Shown here: positions 48,413 to 63,533 of the stretch, piece after piece | Layout of the letters: each line of letters begins with the position of its first letter | Numbering within the stretch: position 1 is the first letter of the stretch | NCBI GenBank assembly: GCA_944358445.1 | Contig: CALVRC010000004.1 | Span: 1-64,000, forward strand | DNA length: 64,000 bases | From: an uncultured Bacilli bacterium | Lineage (GTDB): Bacteria > Bacillota_I > Bacilli_A > RF39 > UBA660 | Direction of reading: 5' to 3' | Made by a program: the position numbers and the translations under genes | Notes under the pieces: model-generated | Database searches by the model: none | What the model was told of the DNA's origin: nothing | The model's input: the letters and a program-made list of their open reading frames with translations, nothing else

Positions 48413-50455
48413 GTGGATTTGGAGGCTAAAAAAAGGGAACTTGCTGATATGCAGGCTGAGTTAGTTAATTTAGAAAGTAGATATTCTAGGGAACAAGATA
48501 ATGATACTTTAGGTAGACAAATTGATAGTTTAAAAAATGATATTACAAAATTGTCTGGTGAAATTGATATTTTACAAAACATGGATTTATTAGAAAAAAA
48601 ATATTCTAATAGTGAACCAATTAATTTTTATTATGTTGATAGTGATGGTTTAAGTGATTATATTGAGCTTACTAGTGGTGATGTAAACTATGATCGTGCT
48701 TATCAACAACAAAGAGATTTGTTACAATTAGAATATAATCATTATAATAAATTGCCATTAAGTTATATTATTAGAGATAATAGAGGTTTTTTAGAAGGTG
48801 TTGTTAATAGTGGTAATGATAAATATGATGAGGTTTATAATCGTAAGAAAAATGAAATTTTAAATATGGATATTATTTATACTAGGAAAGATATAAAACC
48901 TGTTGATAAACAAGATGAGTTACAACCGATTAATGTTCAAAAAGGAAATATAAAAAACAACGAAAAATATTCTGATGTGCATTTTGATAAAATGGATAAT
49001 GAAACTATGCAAGAAGATTTAGATGAACAATATGTTGACCTAGGGTATAGATTATTAAACTCTAATGGTCAATTTATTGTTGTTGGTGATATTCCCTTAG
49101 AGAAAAAAAATAAAGTTATACAATACATTGCTAAAAATTTCGGTCAATCAGCTGCAGATAATATGAAAGTTTTTGATACAAAAACACTTGTAGATATTTT
49201 AAGCAAGAATAAAATGTACAGATTAGCTGATAGCGATTATTATGCTAATATGGATGAGTATGGTAATATTGAAATTCTAAATGATAATAAAGTTATTTAT
49301 GTTATAAAGTCAAATAATAAATTTATTAATGGAACGAAATTAAAAAATTTAATTAGTAAAAAGAATGCTTCTAATGAACAGAAATCTTTAAATAAGAAGG
49401 TTGGGACACACATTGGTAATGGAAAGAGATTTACACCTAATAATTTGGATTCAGAGTATGTCGTGTTTAAAAAAGATGGTTATTTACATTTGATTGGTAA
49501 TTTCACTGGTGATTTTGTAAGAGATAATGCTGAGATGTTTTTTGGTGATTTAGTTAATGATAAAAATATTAAGGGTATTAGAGTTTGGAATAAACTTAAT
49601 GAGGGAAAAACTCCTTTAGATGGTTTTAATATTGATGTAGAAGTGAAGGATGGAAGCATTAATGTCTTAGGGGATGTTGATAATTTTAGTTATTATAATA
49701 AATTAGATGAAAATGAGATGATAACTAGAAAAGATGGTAAACATTTTAAAAATGATGAAGCAGAAAAAAATGATGAAGCAGAAAAAAATGATGAATTAAA
49801 TAATAAGGATATGTCGGGATTAGATATTATTCCTGAAGATAGTATAGATAATTTGAGTAATGGTGCGGTAGCTATGGAGCCTGTGAAAGGAAAAAAGGTT
49901 AACCGTAAAGAGGCCAAACCTTCTTTATTAAAAAGGGCCGTAGAAAAGTTTAAAGGTTTAAAAAAATGGCAAAAGGTTGCTATAATAGCTGGTGTGATTG
50001 CGATTGCTGGTGTTGGTGTGTTTGCTTTAGGACCACAAATAATAAATGGGGTAAATCATTTGTTTAATCCAGAAAATGTGAATGAAGTAAATCAAGCTGC
50101 TCAAACTATTTCATCTTCATCTATTACTGATACAGCATCGCAAACTATGCAATCTATAGATTATTCTAGTATGGGTGGTGCTGGTCATACAGTGTTTACA
50201 AATGCAGCTGATGCGGCAAGTAATGCTAATAGTGTTGTTTCAAATGAATGGTTTAGTAATAACCCGATAGATGTTTTTAATACAGCTACAAATAGTTATA
50301 TGGGATTAACTCCAGAACAACTTAATGATCCTAATTTTATGGCTGAACTGGCTAAAGATCCTAATAATGCAATGTTGTTTGGTAATAGTATTTCTGATGC
50401 TTCTGGATTTGTTGGTTTAGATGATGTGGTTAATCAAGCAACTAAAATAAGATAA
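48413..50455 (+). CDS. Large coiled-coil protein with one membrane helix
   Basis: Unrecognised 680-aa protein. A coiled coil at residues 1-50 (LEAKKRELADMQAELVNLES) is followed by acidic, Tyr/Asn-rich globular stretches. An acidic tandem repeat (NDEAEK twice, then NDEL, about 445-460) precedes a basic patch and one membrane helix (about 523-545, KWQKVAIIAGVIAIAGVG). A Ser/Thr/Asn-rich C-terminal domain follows. No signal peptide is present, so the N-terminus is probably cytoplasmic and the last 130 residues outside. GTG start with AGGGAG 9 bases upstream. It precedes a DUF1292-like gene in the same unit. Confidence 0.75.
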   Translation: MDLEAKKRELADMQAELVNLESRYSREQDNDTLGRQIDSLKNDITKLSGEIDILQNMDLLEKKYSNSEPINFYYVDSDGLSDYIELTSGDVNYDRAYQQQRDLLQLEYNHYNKLPLSYIIRDNRGFLEGVVNSGNDKYDEVYNRKKNEILNMDIIYTRKDIKPVDKQDELQPINVQKGNIKNNEKYSDVHFDKMDNETMQEDLDEQYVDLGYRLLNSNGQFIVVGDIPLEKKNKVIQYIAKNFGQSAADNMKVFDTKTLVDILSKNKMYRLADSDYYANMDEYGNIEILNDNKVIYVIKSNNKFINGTKLKNLISKKNASNEQKSLNKKVGTHIGNGKRFTPNNLDSEYVVFKKDGYLHLIGNFTGDFVRDNAEMFFGDLVNDKNIKGIRVWNKLNEGKTPLDGFNIDVEVKDGSINVLGDVDNFSYYNKLDENEMITRKDGKHFKNDEAEKNDEAEKNDELNNKDMSGLDIIPEDSIDNLSNGAVAMEPVKGKKVNRKEAKPSLLKRAVEKFKGLKKWQKVAIIAGVIAIAGVGVFALGPQIINGVNHLFNPENVNEVNQAAQTISSSSITDTASQTMQSIDYSSMGGAGHTVFTNAADAASNANSVVSNEWFSNNPIDVFNTATNSYMGLTPEQLNDPNFMAELAKDPNNAMLFGNSISDASGFVGLDDVVNQATKIR

Positions 50456-54499: not shown

Positions 54500-54935
54500 G
54501 TTTATAGGCTAAAAACAAAGGATAAAAATATATGGAAATTTAAAGAATATTTAAAAAGTAAGTATCATGCGAATGATGAGATAGTTTTTCATAGTCGATT
54601 AAAAAAAGAATTTTCAAAATATATTAACATTTCTGAAAAAGAAATATTAAAAGAGATAAAACATTATATAATTTCTGATGATTATAAAATAAGACATGCT
54701 TACTTTAGAGCATTCAGATAGGAAAGCATTTAGAGATATTATTATTTATGATAATTTAGATGAAAAATTGATTTCTAGTAATTTAATTGGAATATCAGTT
54801 TTTTTACTTAGAAAAAAGATTTTGGAATATTTGAACAATAGTCAAATTTTATTAAATAAAGGGTTTATTTATGAATTTAATAATAATATTATTACTGGGA
54901 CGTTAGAAAAATTAAAACAGGAAAGGAATAGAAAT
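54500..54935 (+). pseudogene. Frameshifted gene remnant before the C39-like gene
   Basis: Two adjoining open frames together look like one broken protein. The first (54500-54721) reads NIWKFKEYLKSKYHANDEIV and later ISDDYKIRHAYFRAFR; it has no usable start codon. The second (54696-54935) reads RKAFRDIIIYDNLDEKLISS and continues into the next gene without a stop. A one- or two-base shift near 54700 would join them. No family recognised and no ribosome site at its possible starts. Confidence 0.4.
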
Positions 54936-55619
54936 ATGGACAAAAATATTAAACCATATAAACAAAGAGGGGATACATGTGCGATTGCATGTTTAATGAT
55001 GGTTTTAGAATATTATCAAATTATGGATAAGGCTAATTGGTATGATGAGAGAAGATTATATAAAGTATACGGTTCAAAATATATGGCTGGGACTCCGTTT
55101 TCGGCTTTAGCTTTTCATTTATCTAAAAATGGATTAGATACAACTATATATCATTCTGATATAAATCTTTTTAATAATGATAAAAAAAATCTTAGTGAAA
55201 ATGATTTTAAATGCGCAATGGATGAATACAAAGTATATTTAGATAGGGCTGTCTCGAAAGGGGCACGTGCTATAAATGGGATTGATATAGATGCTAAATT
55301 ATTGAAGGAACTACTTAAAGTTGGTAAAAAAATAATACTTGCGGGTGAACTTGCTAGTGCATATCATGCTATTTTAGTTTCTGGTTATGATGATGATAAA
55401 TTTATTGTTTGTGATCCTTTATACAAAACAAAACAAATTAGGACAGCTAATGAACTTAACAAATTTATGGATACAAGTATTGGAAAATGGTTTATTGCGA
55501 TTAGTGATAAAACTAAAGAAAAAGAAGAATTGATGCATAATTTAGATGTTTTTTCATCAGAGGCAGACAGTTTAATGAATATTAAAGAAGGAAATATTTT
55601 AAAACATGGCAGAAAATAA
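54936..55619 (+). CDS. C39-like papain-fold peptidase
   Basis: 227 aa, cytoplasmic, without signal or ABC domain. The catalytic Cys lies in KQRGDTCAIACLMMVLEYY, His in SAYHAILVSGYDDD and Asp in FIVCDPLY, the order of C39-like and DUF3335-type peptidases. These enzymes often trim RiPP leaders. AAAGGAA before ATG 54936 sets the start, although the frame is open further upstream. The last 14 bases overlap the next gene. Its neighbours are broken, and whether it serves the peptide cluster 3 kb downstream is only a guess. Confidence 0.75.
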   Translation: MDKNIKPYKQRGDTCAIACLMMVLEYYQIMDKANWYDERRLYKVYGSKYMAGTPFSALAFHLSKNGLDTTIYHSDINLFNNDKKNLSENDFKCAMDEYKVYLDRAVSKGARAINGIDIDAKLLKELLKVGKKIILAGELASAYHAILVSGYDDDKFIVCDPLYKTKQIRTANELNKFMDTSIGKWFIAISDKTKEKEELMHNLDVFSSEADSLMNIKEGNILKHGRK

Positions 55620-55932
55620 ATATTTATTTTATAGTGATTTTTTGAAAAATCAAAATATTAATAATAAAAGTATTTTAGTTGCTAAAACTAAAAGTTCATA
55701 TTTAATTGGTCCTAAAATTAACCATAAATTTGATGGTGTATTGTTTTATAAAAGAATAAAATCAAATTGTATTTATTCTCCCAAAATTTATAAAAAAATG
55801 TTTAAAAGAAAATGTGTGTTTTTAATTAATAAATATGCTAAAAGTCTAAAAGATAATGAGGTTATTGAAATCTTAAAAAACGGTGAAACATTAGTTCATA
55901 AAATAATTAAGGTTCCGGGTGAAAATTTGTGA
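55606..55932 (+). CDS. Small protein of unknown function, possible RiPP-cluster remnant
   Basis: 108 aa, basic: SILVAKTKSSYLIGPKINHKFDG, then KNGETLVHKIIKVPGENL. Not recognised with confidence. The SYLIGP...K-R-I-K-S-N pattern recalls the start of cyclodehydratase partner proteins of azole peptides (with the Cys lost), so it may be a cut-down relic. An alternative is a small partner of the C39-like peptidase, whose gene it overlaps by 14 bases. AAGGAAAT lies 12 bases before the ATG. Confidence 0.45.
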   Translation: MAENKYLFYSDFLKNQNINNKSILVAKTKSSYLIGPKINHKFDGVLFYKRIKSNCIYSPKIYKKMFKRKCVFLINKYAKSLKDNEVIEILKNGETLVHKIIKVPGENL

Positions 55933-56021
55933 AAAATAAGTTAATTTTAAATAAAGAGATTAATCGTTTAAAAAATTGTAAAATAGGAATAGTTTTTGTC
56001 TATATAATTAGAAGTTATTGA
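55929..56021 (+). CDS. 30-aa frame coupled to the preceding gene, probably truncated
   Basis: GTG start overlapping the upstream stop by 4 bases (GTGA), reading KNKLILNKEINRLKNCKIGIVFVYIIRSY. It could be the first part of a larger gene that has been lost, or non-coding. The -35 of the HelD promoter lies on its stop codon. Confidence 0.25.
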   Translation: MKNKLILNKEINRLKNCKIGIVFVYIIRSY

Positions 56022-56046
56022 TATTTATGTTATAAATTATTATAAT
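56018..56046 (+). promoter_or_regulatory. Promoter of HelD-like gene 1
   Basis: TTGATA (56018-56023), 17-bp spacer, TATAAT (56041-56046). Confidence 0.8.
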
Positions 56047-56088
56047 ATAAAAAGTAAGTTATTTAATATAATGTATAAGGAGCTTTTT

Positions 56089-58059
56089 ATGAATATAAAT
56101 AAAAGTGAATATCAAAAAGAAGAAAAATATTTGGAGAAAGTAAAACGTTTTGCTGATGTATGTATTTCTGATGTTAATATAAAAATTGATAAACAAAAAA
56201 AAGAAGTTTTTGAGATTAAACAATATATTTGGAATGATTGTAAAGCTTTAAATGATTTAGAATATGGAAATTTACTTAATGATACAGATGCAAAGGTTAA
56301 TTGGACAAATTCACAAATAAGACAAGTTATGAAATACCAACATATAAAACAAAATCCTTATTTTGGGCGAATAGATTTTAAAATAGATGAAGATATTATG
56401 CAGGTTTATATTGGTATTTATGGATTTAATTATGATAACTATAATTATATTTTTGATTGGCGTGCCCCAATATCTAATTTGTTTTATGATTATGGGATTG
56501 GTGAGGCACAATATGAAGCTCCAATTGGTATAATCAAAGGTGAAATTACTTTGAGACGTCAATATAAAATTGAAGATGGTAAATTAAGAAGACTAATTGA
56601 AAATGAAATTAATATTAATGACGAAATGTTACAAGAAGTATTATCTGACAATTCTTCCGATAGAATGAAGAATATTGTTACTACTATTCAAAAAGAACAA
56701 AATGAAATTATTCGTAATACATCTGATAGATATCTGATTATTCAAGGTGTGGCTGGTAGTGGTAAGACTTCAGTGGCTTTACATAGAATTGCTTATTTAC
56801 TTTATAAAGAGAAGAATTTATCTTATAGTAATATTTTAATTTTTTCTCCTAATAATATTTTTGCAGAGTATATTTCTGATGTTTTGCCAGAATTAGGAGA
56901 ACGTAATGTATTAAATACGACTTTTAATGATTTATTAAAACAATATCTGAAAAAGTTTGCTAAATTAGAAAGTTTTTCTGATTTTTTAGAGCGAGTATAT
57001 GAAAAAAATGAAAAGCCAATTTATATATTTGATAAACAACAATTGGATGATTTTATTCAACAATATATAAAGAATCATATTTTTTTAAAGAATATTAATA
57101 TTGGGGCTGAAATGTTTAATAGGTTTGAACTTAATGATTTATTACTTAATAAGTATGAAAAACTACCACTTTTGGAGAGAATATCTAGTTTATCTGAATA
57201 TCTTTGTAATAGATTAAAAATTTCTGTAAAAAAGAATAAGAAAAGAATTGAAAATTTGATTATTTCTAATCTGAGTATTTCTTTAGATCCTATATCTATA
57301 TTTTTAGAATTTTTAAATTTGAATGGTGTGACTAAAGAAATAACTAAAAAAATTGATTATAATGATTTGGAATATATAATATATATTTATTTTGAATTAA
57401 GCGGTTACCCTTATAATTCTAATATTAAACATGTAGTTATTGATGAAGCTCAAGATTATTCTCAATTACAATTTTATATTCTAAAAAGGTGTTTTGATAA
57501 GGCATATTTTACAATTTTGGGGGATGTGAATCAGGCAATTAATCCATATTGTCAGTATGCTTCACTTGAAACTTTGTCGGATGTTTTTAATGATGGCTAT
57601 AAATATATAGAATTAAATAATACTTATAGATCGAGTCCAGAAATAACTGATTATGCAAATAATATTTTAGATAAAAAAAATATCAAATCTATTCGAGTGA
57701 GTAATAACATTCCAGTAAAACAATATAAAAACAATGAAGATATTAATAAAATTTTAAAAAATATTGATTATATTTATGAACATGGTTTTAAAAATATAGC
57801 AATACTTACAAAAAATAGTATTGAAGCAAATAAAATATATAATAAATTCATAAAAAAGCAAACGAAATACAATTTTGTAAAAAATAAAATAAATAAAAAT
57901 AGTATTTCAATAATGCCTTCTTATTTATCTAAAGGTTTAGAGTTTGATGGTGTTATCATATATAATGATATTAATAATGGATATAATAGTTTTGAAAAAA
58001 ATTTATTTTATGTGGCCGTGACTAGGAGTCAACATATTTTGTTTGTTTATAATAACTAA
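56089..58059 (+). CDS. HelD-like UvrD/Rep-family helicase, copy 1
   Basis: 656 aa. HelD proteins are ATP-driven motors that free stalled RNA polymerase from DNA and, in actinobacteria, give rifamycin resistance. Visible: N-terminal coiled arm (about 1-70), FDWRAPISNLFYDYGIG, RRQYKIEDGKLRRLIEN and MKNIVTTIQKEQNEIIRN. Walker A is GVAGSGKTS, motif II is HVVIDEAQDYSQLQ, and motifs III-VI run from GDVNQAINP through NTYRSSPEITDYAN to KGLEFDGVI and VAVTRSQH. ATG 56089 follows AAGGAG; the ATG at 56071 lies upstream of that site. A paralogue lies at 61434, and the RiPP-like genes sit between the two. Confidence 0.9.
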   Translation: MNINKSEYQKEEKYLEKVKRFADVCISDVNIKIDKQKKEVFEIKQYIWNDCKALNDLEYGNLLNDTDAKVNWTNSQIRQVMKYQHIKQNPYFGRIDFKIDEDIMQVYIGIYGFNYDNYNYIFDWRAPISNLFYDYGIGEAQYEAPIGIIKGEITLRRQYKIEDGKLRRLIENEININDEMLQEVLSDNSSDRMKNIVTTIQKEQNEIIRNTSDRYLIIQGVAGSGKTSVALHRIAYLLYKEKNLSYSNILIFSPNNIFAEYISDVLPELGERNVLNTTFNDLLKQYLKKFAKLESFSDFLERVYEKNEKPIYIFDKQQLDDFIQQYIKNHIFLKNINIGAEMFNRFELNDLLLNKYEKLPLLERISSLSEYLCNRLKISVKKNKKRIENLIISNLSISLDPISIFLEFLNLNGVTKEITKKIDYNDLEYIIYIYFELSGYPYNSNIKHVVIDEAQDYSQLQFYILKRCFDKAYFTILGDVNQAINPYCQYASLETLSDVFNDGYKYIELNNTYRSSPEITDYANNILDKKNIKSIRVSNNIPVKQYKNNEDINKILKNIDYIYEHGFKNIAILTKNSIEANKIYNKFIKKQTKYNFVKNKINKNSISIMPSYLSKGLEFDGVIIYNDINNGYNSFEKNLFYVAVTRSQHILFVYNN

Positions 58060-58067
58060 ATTATAAG

Positions 58068-58104
58068 TTAATTATTCCATTTTCACATTAATTATTCCAT
58101 TTTC
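58068..58104 (+). repeat. Two 17-bp direct repeats upstream of the precursor gene
   Basis: TTAATTATTCCATTTTC at 58068-58084 and 58088-58104, identical, 20 bp apart (two helical turns), 10 bp upstream of the -35 of the precursor promoter. This is the geometry of an activator site. Confidence 0.85.
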
Positions 58105-58114
58105 TCTTATTTTC

Positions 58115-58143
58115 TTGCTTTTTTATTGGGGTGGTGCTAAAAT
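58115..58143 (+). promoter_or_regulatory. Promoter of the RiPP-like precursor
   Basis: TTGCTT (58115-58120), 17-bp spacer, TAAAAT (58138-58143) with extended TGC. The start point should fall near the ribosome site, leaving a leader of about 14 bases. Confidence 0.7.
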
Positions 58144-58163
58144 GTATTAAAGGAGGCATTGTT

Positions 58164-58289
58164 ATGAAGATTGTCAAGGTTAATAAGGCAAAAAATAATG
58201 TAAAAGATTTAAAAAAAATAACCGAAATGACAGTTGCCAATGCATTACTTGATGCATGTGGTTGTACAGGAAACGGTTATTGTCAATAA
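58164..58289 (+). CDS. RiPP-like precursor peptide, 41 aa
   Basis: Begins MKIVKVNKAKNNVKDLKKIT (basic leader) and ends ALLDACGCTGNGYCQ. The last 11 residues hold three Cys, Gly, Thr and Tyr, a typical core for radical SAM modification such as thioether or other crosslinks. AAAGGAGG precedes the ATG. It has its own promoter and direct-repeat site, a hairpin terminator follows, and a radical SAM/SPASM gene starts 46 bases downstream. It resembles the small Cys-rich peptides beside radical SAM enzymes in clostridia (Clo7bot or CLI_3235 types) in layout, but no family match can be claimed. Confidence 0.8.
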   Translation: MKIVKVNKAKNNVKDLKKITEMTVANALLDACGCTGNGYCQ

Positions 58290-58290
58290 A

Positions 58291-58316
58291 TAGAGTGATG
58301 TAAATCACTCTATTTT
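58291..58316 (+). terminator. Attenuating terminator between precursor and radical SAM gene
   Basis: A perfect 9-bp stem (58291-58299 with 58304-58312), 4-base loop, then TTTT. The short T-run should allow some readthrough, giving more precursor than enzyme. Confidence 0.8.
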
Positions 58317-58335
58317 AGAAAGTAGGGTTAATTAG

Positions 58336-59604
58336 ATGTATAAGATAAGTAGATATAACATAATAAAAAAATACGATGATAAAATTATAGTTTATAATTC
58401 GTATACTAAAGCTAATATTTTTTTATCAATTGATTCTTCTACTAAGGCATTTGAAGATATTAAAGAGTTTGAAAAGTTAGATAATGATACTAAGAAGCTG
58501 TTAATAGATAATGGCTTTGTTATCGATGAAAACAGGGATGAATTATCTGAGATAAAATATATGTTTGAAAAAAGATATTATGATAAATCTTTTTTGAATA
58601 TTGTTTTAGTTCCATCACTTGCTTGTAATTTTTCTTGTCCATATTGTTTTGAAAAGGATTTAAGTAGTGGCAAAGAAAATGTAAAACATTATTTTGAAGT
58701 GTTAAAAAAATATGCTGAAAAGAATTTTAAAAATTATAAATGTGTACAAATAAGTTTGTTTGGTGGAGAACCTTTGCTATTTATAAAGGAATGCTTAGAT
58801 TTTTTGAAATTTGTTGATTCAAATTCTAAGAAGAATAAATACAAGTATTTTACTTCAATTGTTACAAATGGGTCTTTATTAAATGAAAATAATTTGAAGG
58901 AAATGTTAGACTATCATTTAAAAATGTTACAGATAACAATAGACTCTGACAAAGAAACTCATGACAAAACTAGAAGATTTAAAAATGGAAAACCGTCATT
59001 TGATTTATTAATTAAAAAAATTGAGTTGGTTGTTACTATGACCAAAAATATTCCTGATTTTAATTTTGTGTTGCGTATTAATTTGTCAAATACAACAGTT
59101 GAAAAAGTAAAACAATCATTACAATATATTGATGAGAAATGTCGTTCAAAAATTAATTTATTAATTAGATCTGTTTATAATACTCATAAATATAAAGATA
59201 AAAATAGTAATGATAATTCTCAAATAGATAAATATTTTGCAATGGGTAAAGAGTTAGGTTTCTCTGTTTTTCAAGAAAGTTTTCAGTATCAAAGTTGTGA
59301 AGCTTGTGCAGATGATAAATTCTTTTATTTAATGCCTGATTTAACTATGTGGAAATGTATTAATGATTTAAATTATAAAGAGGCATGTATAGGTAAAATT
59401 AACGATGAGGGCGAAGCTGAAATTATACCATTAAAAAATGTCTTTTGGGCAAAAAATGCTTTATCAGCTTTTTCAGATGAAAAATGTTTAAATTGTAAGT
59501 TGTTACCAGATTGTTATGGTGGATGTATTTTACAAAAGTGTAAAACGTGTAAAAAGGCATGTAGACCATTTGAAATGGTAAGCATGTTACATATTTTTAG
59601 ATAG
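58336..59604 (+). CDS. Radical SAM/SPASM peptide maturase
   Basis: 422 aa. An N-terminal region of about 80 residues (possible precursor-recognition part) is followed by the radical SAM cluster motif ACNFSCPYCFE (CxxxCxxC) with FGGEPLLF and VTNGSLL. The C-terminal SPASM domain binds further [4Fe-4S] clusters: CEACADD, WKCINDLNY, then CLNCKLLPDCYGGCILQKC and CKKACRPF. Enzymes of this build install thioether or carbon-carbon links in peptides or act as anaerobic sulfatase maturases; the adjacent Cys-rich peptide favours the first. AAAGTAGGG precedes the ATG. Next gene starts after 7 bases. Confidence 0.93.
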   Translation: MYKISRYNIIKKYDDKIIVYNSYTKANIFLSIDSSTKAFEDIKEFEKLDNDTKKLLIDNGFVIDENRDELSEIKYMFEKRYYDKSFLNIVLVPSLACNFSCPYCFEKDLSSGKENVKHYFEVLKKYAEKNFKNYKCVQISLFGGEPLLFIKECLDFLKFVDSNSKKNKYKYFTSIVTNGSLLNENNLKEMLDYHLKMLQITIDSDKETHDKTRRFKNGKPSFDLLIKKIELVVTMTKNIPDFNFVLRINLSNTTVEKVKQSLQYIDEKCRSKINLLIRSVYNTHKYKDKNSNDNSQIDKYFAMGKELGFSVFQESFQYQSCEACADDKFFYLMPDLTMWKCINDLNYKEACIGKINDEGEAEIIPLKNVFWAKNALSAFSDEKCLNCKLLPDCYGGCILQKCKTCKKACRPFEMVSMLHIFR

Positions 59605-59611
59605 GTGTAAT

Positions 59612-60449
59612 ATGAATATTTGTGAAAAAGAATTATTACTTGGAATTCAGCAAAAATCTAAATTTAGATTATATAATTTTATGGATTGTGTTGCATTAAT
59701 TGATAGAGGTAATTTCAGAAAACATCAGGAGGATTCTATTTTAGTATCTGAACGGTTAGGAAATACACTTATGTTAGTGGCAGATGGTATGGGTGGTTTA
59801 GAAGATGGAGCTTTTGCAAGTCGTATGGCTGCTATTGATGCATATTATTGGTTTCAAAATTTAGAGATACATGATTTTAATTTTATTGAGCAAATAAAAG
59901 AAAAATATGAGAGCTTTATTGAAAAACTCGATATAAAAATAAGAAATAGCTGTGATGGTGGAACTACTATGTTACTTGCTATTGAAGTTGAAAATTCTGT
60001 TTTATGTTTTAATATAGGTGATTCACGTGCATATATATGACAGTCTAGGAAATTTAAAACAGGTTACAAAAGATCAGTCTATTACTCAAGAATTGTATGA
60101 AAAAGGTGAGATATTATCTAAAGATGATATGCGATTCCATAAAAAAAACAATTTGATTTGTTCAAGAGTTGGTTGTGAGAAAAAAATTTTGACTATTGAG
60201 TTTCAAAATATTTCAAAAGATGAAATCAACGATATGTTTTTGTTTACTGATGGTGTTACAGATTGTATTTCTGATGAGGTATTACTAAATATTATTTCTA
60301 ATGACGATGAGTTTGTAAGTAAGCAAATATTAAATTATGTTATGACAAATGATTCTTATAGTAAACTTTTTAGCAATGATTATTATGATAAAATAGAAGC
60401 TGGTAAGGATAATGTTTCTATTATTCAAAAGAAAATTAGGAGAAAATAA
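59612..60449 (+). pseudogene. PP2C-type Ser/Thr phosphatase split by an (AT)n frameshift
   Basis: All PP2C blocks are present in order over 279 codons: RKHQEDS and ADGMGGLEDGA (metal ligands), GGTTM, NIGDSRAY, then after the shift SLGNLKQVTKDQSITQ, FTDGVTD and GKDNVSII. The first frame stops at 60040 (TGA), inside the tract at 60031-60038; the second frame continues to 60449. Adding one AT unit would restore a single reading frame reading DSRAYIYDSLGN. The catalytic residues are unharmed, so this may be a recent slip, a switch or a sequence error. Follows the radical SAM gene by 7 bases; AGGTG at the start. Confidence 0.88.
60031..60038. repeat. (AT)4 tract at the PP2C frameshift
   Basis: Four AT units; five would keep the phosphatase in frame. 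Confidence 0.85.
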
Positions 60450-60451
60450 AT

Positions 60452-61342
60452 ATGACAAAGATTCAAAAAAAATGGCGTGAAAGTAAAATAGATTTATCTA
60501 CATTACAATTAAAAGAAATACAAACTTATAAAGTAATTAGTTATCCTCCAGCTGGAAATGATGTTTTTGATTGTGTGGGAACATTAAAATCTGGTGAAAA
60601 TGTTAATTTTATAATAAAAAGTGAACGAGGAAATTTTGCAAATTTTGATAATGAAATAAAGATATTAAATACAATTACCGATTTTCCCATTCCTAAGATT
60701 ATTGAAACTGGTAAAATTAATAATTTTAGATATATCGTAATGAATAAAATGGAAGGTGAAAAACTTTCAGATATATTTAATGAAAACAAAGATGTGGATA
60801 AAAAAAAATATTTGTTCTTATATGGTCAAGAATTAGCTAAGATTCATAAAATTAATATAAACTGGGATATTGCTAGGCAACGAGATATAAATGATGTTCC
60901 TAGCACGGAATTTTATAAAGACTTAAATGATTGGGAATGTAAGACAATAAAGTATTTAGAGAAAACAAAACCAACAATAGTAATGGATACTTTTATTCAT
61001 GGAGATTTTCACTATGGAAATATTTTATGGCAAGGTTATAATATTTCTGCTATTTTAGATTGGGAATATTCTGGATTAGGTTTTAAAGAACAAGATATAG
61101 CTTGGGCTTTAGTCTTAAGACCGGACCAAAAATTTATGGATAATTTGCTTGATTATAAGGCTTTTTTAGAAGGTTATAATTCGATTGAGGATTTTGATTA
61201 TATTAAATTAAAATGGTGTTTGATAAATGGATTACTTCATTTTTATTTAATAAACAAACATCAAAAAAACAAAAATTATCTTTCCAAAGTAAAAAAATTA
61301 ATAGAGCAATTAAAAAATTATGATTTTAAACATGTTTTATAA
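60452..61342 (+). CDS. APH-fold (aminoglycoside phosphotransferase-family) kinase
   Basis: 296 aa. The N-lobe has FIIKSERGNFANFDNEIKIL with the Lys/Glu pair, then YIVMNKMEGEKLSDIF (hinge). The catalytic loop is TFIHGDFHYGNILW (HGDxxxxN) and the metal site AILDWEYSGLG. The family includes antibiotic, choline, homoserine and protein kinases. Two bases separate it from the PP2C gene, so kinase and phosphatase genes are coupled behind the peptide maturase. It could modify the peptide, confer self-resistance or phosphorylate a regulator. Confidence 0.88.
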   Translation: MTKIQKKWRESKIDLSTLQLKEIQTYKVISYPPAGNDVFDCVGTLKSGENVNFIIKSERGNFANFDNEIKILNTITDFPIPKIIETGKINNFRYIVMNKMEGEKLSDIFNENKDVDKKKYLFLYGQELAKIHKININWDIARQRDINDVPSTEFYKDLNDWECKTIKYLEKTKPTIVMDTFIHGDFHYGNILWQGYNISAILDWEYSGLGFKEQDIAWALVLRPDQKFMDNLLDYKAFLEGYNSIEDFDYIKLKWCLINGLLHFYLINKHQKNKNYLSKVKKLIEQLKNYDFKHVL

Positions 61343-61355
61343 TGACATGTTTTTT
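61328..61355 (+). terminator. Terminator of the RiPP-like operon
   Basis: AAACATG and CATGTTT around a loop that contains the stop codon, followed by Ts. Confidence 0.75.
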
Positions 61356-61380
61356 ATGTATAATTGGTTTTATAGTGTAT

Positions 61381-61409
61381 TTGAAGTTTTATACTTTTTA
61401 TGTTATTAT
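61381..61409 (+). promoter_or_regulatory. Promoter of HelD-like gene 2
   Basis: TTGAAG (61381-61386), 17-bp spacer, TATTAT (61404-61409) with extended TGT. Confidence 0.6.
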
Positions 61410-61433
61410 ATTGTATACATTTTGGAGGTATCT

Positions 61434-63533
61434 ATGAATAATATTGATGAAAGTGTTTTGGCCGAAGAAAAAGAATATTTAAAAAAAGTTGAAGAAATAT
61501 TAAATGATTTAATTGAAGCTTCTGGTGAGCGTGTTGCAAAGCAACAGAGAGAGAATCAAGCATTGAAAAAGATGATATGGGATACTAGGACTGAACATAC
61601 GGATTCTGAGTATAACTCACAACTTAGCGAAATAAATCATAATACAAATATGTTGAGTGAAAATGTAAAACGGGTATTAAATTACCAAAAAGCAGTGTAT
61701 TCTCCATATTTTGGTAGAATAGATTTTAAGCGTGATGGTAGTAATAGGAGTATGCATATATATGTTGGCTTAACTACGGTTAAGGAGAATATGGATTTTT
61801 ATGTATTCGATTGGCGAACTCCAGTTGCAAGTTTGTTTTATAATTATAGTATTGGTGAGGCACAGTATGAGGCACCAAAAAGAACTATAAAGGGTAAAAT
61901 TGATTTAAGACGTCAGTATAAAATAGAAAATGGTGAATTAAAAAGACTAATTGAAAGTGATATTAATATTGATGATGAGTTTTTACAAGAGATTTTGTCT
62001 AATAGTTCTTCTGATAGAATGAAGAATATTGTGACTACCATCCAAAAAGAACAAAATGAAATTATTCGCAATAAATCTGCTAATAATTTGATTGTTCAAG
62101 GCGTGGCTGGTAGTGGTAAAACTTCGGTTGCACTACATAGAATTGCTTATTTGTTATATCAGCGTAAAGATTTAAATTCAGATAATATTTTAATATTTTC
62201 ACCTAATAATATTTTTGCAGATTATATTTCTGATGTATTACCGGAATTGGGAGAAGATAATGTGTTAAATACGACTTTTTCTGATTTGGCAAGTGCTTAT
62301 ATTAAAAATAAAAAAATTCAAAGCTTTTCAAATTTCGTTGAAGAATATTATGATAATGAAAAAGATGAATTTAAAAATGAAATTATAAGTTTTAAATTAT
62401 CAGATGAATATAAAAAAGTTTTAGATTTATATATGTTATATTATACTAAATCTCATTGTTTAAAAGAAAGTTTTGAATTTGTTGTTGGAAATTCTAGAGA
62501 AGTCTTTATTGATAAAGATGAAATTAATGATTTATTTGTAAATAAATTTGGACATTTACCGATTATTGAAAGAATAAATCGAATTGTTGATTATATCTGT
62601 TCTAAGGATAATATACCTTTTTCAAAATATAATTCTACTGTTAGAAGTCAATTGAGAAAGGCAATGGGAATAGATTTGGATGTAAAAAGAGTCTACAATG
62701 ATTTTATGAATAGTGAAATATATACTAATAATTTCGATTTTGATGTTGCAGGCTTTTACAACAAAAATAAACCGGTTTCTTATGAAGATATTATGGGAAT
62801 GTTATATTTAAATTTTGAGTTGAATGATTATCCATATAACATACATGTAAAACATATTGTTATAGATGAAGCTCAGGATTATTCTAAATTACAGTTAGAT
62901 ATTATTAAAAAGATTTTTCCTCATGCAACGTTTACTATTTTAGGGGATGTAAATCAAATTATTAATCCTTTTTATAAGTATGATACTTTGGAATCTTTAA
63001 AAGATATATTTGGTGATTCTACTGAGTATTATGAATTGTTAAAATCATATAGATCTAGTCCAGAAATAACTGATTATGCAAATAATATTTTGGGATTGGG
63101 TGAAGATTTGGCTGTTAGAAATTCTACTAATAAACCGGTAATTAATGAGGAAGAAAATTCTTCTATGTTTGAAGAACAAATATATGAAGATATTCAAAGA
63201 ATGAGTAATGATGGTTTAAAAAGAATAGCAATTATTACTAGAAATAAAAAAGAGGCAGATGAGCTATTTTATAGGTTAAAAATTGGTAATAATGATATAA
63301 CATTTTCTACCTCTAGCATGCAAAATAATAATGTAATTATTGTTCCAGCTTATATTGCTAAAGGGTTGGAATTTGATGGTGTTATTGCATATACTAAACC
63401 TGATGATTATTATACGGAAGATGAAAAGAATTTGTATTATGTCGTGTGTACAAGAGCTCAACATCAGTTGGTAGTATATAACCAGCCTCAATATGTTTTA
63501 GAAAAGCCTAAAATGTTAGTTAGAAAAAAATAG
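61434..63533 (+). CDS. HelD-like UvrD/Rep-family helicase, copy 2
   Basis: 699 aa, paralogue of the 56089 gene with long near-identical stretches (MKNIVTTIQKEQNEIIR, GVAGSGKTSVALHRIAYLLY). Coiled N-terminal arm (about 1-75), FDWRTPVASLFYNYSIG, Walker A GVAGSGKTS, motif II HIVIDEAQDYSKLQ, GDVNQIINPF, KSYRSSPEITDYANN, AKGLEFDGVIAY and VVCTRAQHQLVVY. The mid-part (insertion domain) is longer than in copy 1. ATG 61434 follows GGAGG; an open frame upstream to 61320 overlaps the kinase gene and is not used. Own promoter. Confidence 0.9.
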   Translation: MNNIDESVLAEEKEYLKKVEEILNDLIEASGERVAKQQRENQALKKMIWDTRTEHTDSEYNSQLSEINHNTNMLSENVKRVLNYQKAVYSPYFGRIDFKRDGSNRSMHIYVGLTTVKENMDFYVFDWRTPVASLFYNYSIGEAQYEAPKRTIKGKIDLRRQYKIENGELKRLIESDINIDDEFLQEILSNSSSDRMKNIVTTIQKEQNEIIRNKSANNLIVQGVAGSGKTSVALHRIAYLLYQRKDLNSDNILIFSPNNIFADYISDVLPELGEDNVLNTTFSDLASAYIKNKKIQSFSNFVEEYYDNEKDEFKNEIISFKLSDEYKKVLDLYMLYYTKSHCLKESFEFVVGNSREVFIDKDEINDLFVNKFGHLPIIERINRIVDYICSKDNIPFSKYNSTVRSQLRKAMGIDLDVKRVYNDFMNSEIYTNNFDFDVAGFYNKNKPVSYEDIMGMLYLNFELNDYPYNIHVKHIVIDEAQDYSKLQLDIIKKIFPHATFTILGDVNQIINPFYKYDTLESLKDIFGDSTEYYELLKSYRSSPEITDYANNILGLGEDLAVRNSTNKPVINEEENSSMFEEQIYEDIQRMSNDGLKRIAIITRNKKEADELFYRLKIGNNDITFSTSSMQNNNVIIVPAYIAKGLEFDGVIAYTKPDDYYTEDEKNLYYVVCTRAQHQLVVYNQPQYVLEKPKMLVRKK

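Follow-up and report, generated by a model that had tools for sequence, protein, structure and literature searches.

In streptococcal RaS-RiPP clusters controlled by Rgg/SHP, a radical SAM enzyme is encoded together with a short precursor that has its own promoter (PMC13361665, PMC8092268), and the target sites of ComA (PMC4797271) are direct repeats arranged upstream of a promoter. The sigma-A extended -10 promoters of Firmicutes combine the motif TGn-TAnnnT with a 17-bp spacer and a weak -35 element. Slippage duplications in AT-rich bacterial intergenic DNA consist of two adjacent, near-identical units that occur in a single lineage within an unconstrained spacer. The locus described here lies in a window of 64,000 nucleotides (the whole stretch of DNA that was analyzed) from an uncultured Bacilli bacterium, and it can be compared with each of these. 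It has the radical SAM enzyme and the separately promoted precursor of the streptococcal clusters, but no rgg-type regulator or pheromone gene was recognized in the cluster, and no site is conserved upstream of the -35 element. Its direct repeats are arranged like those of ComA sites but are unconserved, and they come with neither a demonstrated ComA-like site nor a cognate regulator. Judged by its sequence, the promoter appears to differ in nothing notable from the sigma-A extended -10 class. The repeats resemble slippage duplications, except that they are positioned just upstream of a promoter and slippage would be a presumed origin. We conclude that they are very probably a private tandem duplication in an AT-rich spacer beside an ordinary, conserved sigma-A-type promoter that would need no upstream site. 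The features of the locus are as follows.

56071 to 58059, plus strand: HelD-type ATPase, copy 1 (HelD1), with its stop codon 8 bp before the first repeat
58068 to 58084, plus strand: direct repeat copy 1, TTAATTATTCCATTTTC, in a 20-bp unit at 58068 to 58087
58088 to 58104, plus strand: direct repeat copy 2, the identical 17-mer, in a 20-bp unit at 58088 to 58107
58115 to 58120, plus strand: -35 element TTGCTT, the poorest of 12 homologues (TTGACA or TTGACT in most others)
58135 to 58143, plus strand: extended -10 element TGC-TAAAAT (TG at 58135 to 58136, TAAAAT at 58138 to 58143), with a 17-bp spacer to the -35 element
58150 to 58156, plus strand: Shine-Dalgarno sequence AAGGAGG, near the expected transcription start
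58164 to 58289, plus strand: RiPP-type precursor peptide of 41 aa, C-terminal LLDACGCTGNGYCQ, with homologues in 11 other loci
58288 to 58315, plus strand: hairpin with a 12-bp stem and a 4-nt loop, between the genes for precursor and maturase
58336 to 59604, plus strand: radical SAM peptide maturase, related to Clo7bot / CefB / TIGR04463 maturases, far below the cut-offs
59612 to 60449, plus strand: Stp1/IreP-like PP2C phosphatase in two frames, split around 60018 to 60040 in this assembly
60452 to 61342, plus strand: APH-fold kinase-like protein
61320 to 63533, plus strand: HelD-type RNA polymerase recycling ATPase, copy 2 (HelD2), with a likely true start at about 61434

The earlier note had described two identical 17-bp direct repeats 20 bp apart, on one helix face and 10 bp upstream of the -35 element, and this description was confirmed. 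The 20 bp is the start-to-start period of the two copies of TTAATTATTCCATTTTC, which have 3 bp between them; it corresponds to 1.9 helical turns, which places the copies roughly on one face, and copy 2 ends 10 bp before the -35 element. The 20-bp units lie head-to-tail with no gap and are 90% identical, differing in two of their three final bases. When the 104-bp intergenic region was dinucleotide-shuffled 5000 times, exact close repeats reached 14 bp at most (in 3 shuffles), and no shuffle contained an exact repeat of at least 15 bp within 60 bp; a repeat of at least 17 bp arose in 1 of 60 shuffles of the whole window. Because shuffled sequences almost never yield such long close repeats, the pair is a genuine duplication and not a coincidence of AT-rich sequence. 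The tract is detected by direct comparison and went unreported by Tandem Repeats Finder at a score of 30. It has no predicted fold (z 0.2), which rules out a terminator or other RNA element as its identity.

It is extremely improbable that the duplication is an assembly artefact and not present in the organism. The assembly is a draft in 40 contigs, and the frame break in the downstream PP2C gene means that errors or decay are possible; however, a simple assembly duplication would not give rise to the mismatches between the units, and a 37-bp tract fits inside one short read. In length, the pair ranks second among the close repeats of the window, after a perfect tandem repeat, AAAAATGATGAAGCAGAA (18 bp x 2.7; 49748 to 49795), which lies in a 680-codon gene and in which each copy accounts for six residues; being longer, perfect, and in a coding gene, that repeat indicates that duplications of this kind arise in this genome without any operator role.

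The claim that the precursor has its own extended -10 promoter is supported. TGn precedes the -10 element, the spacer falls within 16–18 bp, and a -35-like hexamer is present, although at 3 of 6 positions it is the weakest in the set of 12. The -10 element ends 20 bp before the precursor ATG (58164). Transcription would start near 58150, and because the expected start is so close to the Shine-Dalgarno sequence, the 5′ UTR would be very short (about 15 nt), with little beyond the Shine-Dalgarno sequence itself; the homologues would share this spacing.

We collected homologous clusters via the maturase: L012, L013, L014, and L015 (genome contigs), L019–L023 (family), and L032 and L033 (genus); L031, L034, and L018 are second copies of L012, L013, and L015, respectively. 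These 11 other loci (five from the same genus, five from other genera of the family, and one clostridial) make 12 with the window's own, and one genome per species was available. A sigma-A-type promoter-like pair with a spacer of exactly 17 bp was found upstream of all 12 precursors. In 11 of the 12, the end of the -10 element and the start codon are 19–24 bp apart, the exception being L020, where the best-scoring pair is further off, and five of the six clusters of the genus have the extended -10 TG. The repeats are distributed differently. Neither the tandem repeat nor the 17-mer occurs in any of the 11 other loci within 80 bp upstream of the -35 element. The longest exact direct repeat there is just 5–8 bp, and the 17-mer is matched at 8–12 of 17 positions at best, the same as is reached as a rule by 80-bp segments taken at random from the window. 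In L032, of the same genus, only about 7 bp separate the helD1 stop from the -35 element, so that an upstream operator could fit only within the helD gene. Because all 12 loci keep the promoter and the other 11 lack the repeats, the promoter belongs to the cluster and the repeats to this lineage.

The earlier note had likened the placement of the repeats to that of an activator site and remarked that peptide systems with direct-repeat sites are often quorum- or peptide-controlled. On such a reading, the repeats would be a two-site operator through which a ComA- or RRNPP-type activator would switch on the precursor promoter. Their perfect 17-bp identity, their period near two helical turns, and their location 10 bp ahead of a weak -35 element would suit such an operator, as would the direct-repeat motif reported for ComA of B. 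subtilis (PMC4797271) and the Rgg/SHP quorum sensing that controls streptococcal RaS-RiPPs (PMC13361665, PMC12322106). A direct-repeat activator site would, however, be conserved upstream of orthologous promoters, and the repeats were found in 0 of 11 homologous loci, including a sister with a 90% identical maturase, although all of them keep the promoter. The earlier note had itself named such a lack of conservation as the sequence half of what would count against its proposal. Its observation that the cluster has no dedicated regulator gene holds: none of the eight proteins scanned (54696 to 61339) matches a DNA-binding regulator family, so that no cognate regulator is found nearby, and a distant one is possible. 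The genome also has no second pair on which a trans-acting factor could act, as the tandem pair has no other instance there, even with 3 mismatches, and a looser version of it is absent from 58 relatives. The operator reading is therefore not supported, and we regard it as very improbable.

The 17-mer with up to 3 mismatches has 147 genome-wide matches, compared with 71 for the reversed pattern. We rejected this excess as a sign of a regulon, because neither strand has more matches than the other and the best of them lie in coding frames. A third exact copy is found on contig C9, inside a gene that we take to encode a D-alanyl-D-alanine carboxypeptidase (DacA-like), where it reads as E-N-G-I-I-K on the opposite strand. 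Together with two copies that have a single mismatch, it makes up the three best matches outside the pair (L003, L004, and L005), which overlap coding frames that are presumably DacA-like, phosphoglycerate kinase-like, and alpha-amylase-like. That the best matches are coding is as expected if E-N-G-I-I/K-type codons produce the 17-mer pattern. These genome-wide statistics rest on pattern searches, from which the best 17-mer matches were inspected singly. Because the pair is unique and the best single copies lie in coding frames, the sequence gives no sign of a regulon for the 17-mer.

The closest sister, L012, whose maturase is the 90% identical one, has a precursor that differs at one residue, and its DNA aligns with little change from the -35 element onward. 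Its -35 element, TTGCAA, is also weak and has no repeats next to it. The distance from the helD stop to the -35 element is 36 bp in L012 and 55 bp here, a difference of about one 20-bp unit, so that the tract has the properties of a short tandem duplication: the units are adjacent, and the nearest relative lacks the repeat and is shorter by about one unit. Deleting 20 bp in the repeat tract raised the spacer alignment score against L012 from 4 to 17, a result matched by 1% of shuffled spacers, but some other 20-bp removals near the tract align equally well, and the support for a single-unit ancestor is modest.

A different possibility is an UP-element role for the duplicated AT-rich tract, which would lift basal promoter strength and offset the weak -35 element without a regulator. 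The UP-element zone is just upstream of the -35 element, where the tract is located, and the 80 bp upstream of this -35 element is 16% GC, the minimum of the set together with L019. The homologues are, however, also AT-rich there (16%–33% GC) without a repeat, the genome is AT-rich throughout, and the tract shows no sign of selection; this makes an UP element very improbable.

According to the favored reading of a private duplication beside an ordinary promoter, the precursor would be transcribed from its own sigma-A promoter, in which the 17-bp spacer and the extended -10 would suffice without any site upstream of the -35 element. The two 17-mers would stem from a single, recent tandem duplication of some 20 bp, confined to this lineage, in the AT-rich spacer that separates the helD1 stop codon from the promoter, with replication slippage as the likely cause. 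The duplication would be neutral or near-neutral, at most changing the local A+T content upstream of the -35 element and so modifying promoter strength in the manner of an UP element; the promoter is probably constitutive, and the repeats probably do not act as a control switch. Some points weigh against this explanation: the weakest -35 element of the set would fit an activator-dependent promoter and leaves some room for the activator and UP-element readings, an operator may have evolved solely in this lineage, and conservation could be compared between species, with one genome for each.

The genes around the promoter form a radical SAM-modified RiPP cluster, in which a short Cys-containing precursor directly precedes a radical SAM peptide maturase. 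A precursor with an LDACxCTGN-like core precedes the maturase in each of the 11 other loci. Compared with named families, the maturase reached no curated cut-off, and no match to it was found in viral contigs. A hairpin between precursor and maturase is predicted in all 12 loci, with varying sequence; it is probably a partial terminator or transcript-ratio element, which would reduce read-through into the maturase gene and leave the precursor in excess of the enzyme. The conserved expression-control element at the locus is this predicted hairpin and not the repeats. An Rfam search of the window returned two tRNAs and nothing else. Upstream of HelD1, a C39-like peptidase gene (54696 to 55619) encodes a candidate leader peptidase for the precursor; C39 enzymes usually require a double-glycine leader, which the precursor lacks. 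The PP2C gene, which is a single intact frame in L012 and L015, is broken here by an AT-repeat run, gcatatatatg (60018 to 60040), where two frames overlap; the split is either a recent frameshift or an assembly error.

L012 and L015 share the arrangement HelD1, precursor, radical SAM enzyme, PP2C, APH-fold kinase, HelD2. Of five clusters from other genera of the family, four (L024, with its precursor identified by motif, L025, L027, and L028) keep the sequence of genes precursor, maturase, PP2C, kinase, HelD, and the cluster of L026 is without HelD. Overall, the order across 56071 to 63533 is largely kept in ten other family loci, some of them on short or cut stretches. Near its cluster, L015 (1 to 3676 and 11663 to 12448) has genes that look VirB4-like (an ATPase), M23-type (a peptidase), and transposase-like, and L012 (1848 to 2350) has genes near its cluster that we take to be transposase-like; these neighbors, named by sequence impression, suggest that the cluster may move with mobile DNA.

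HelD2 is 49% identical to HelD1 and homologous to the corresponding genes in relatives, and both HelD matches of the genome lie inside the cluster. In the genus, a HelD match is present in all six cluster-bearing genomes, compared with 12 of the 38 without the cluster (completeness varies). HelD of B. subtilis shields RNA polymerase against rifampicin (PMC12802891). By analogy, the LDACxCTGNGxC RiPP, a Cys-motif peptide encoded in a set order with a PP2C phosphatase, an APH-fold kinase, and one or two HelD ATPases, might target RNA polymerase, with HelD providing self-protection and the repeats being just private variation of the promoter, a proposal that we consider improbable.

An ordinary promoter with a private duplication would carry small regulatory weight, and recognizing it avoids a hunt for a regulator that is probably not there. 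The parts that merit retention are the conserved set of homologous clusters, the compact promoter with its putative 5′ UTR of about 15 nt, the precursor–maturase hairpin, and the neighborhood tied to HelD; the cluster of HelD, precursor, radical SAM enzyme, PP2C, kinase, and HelD is more interesting than the repeats.
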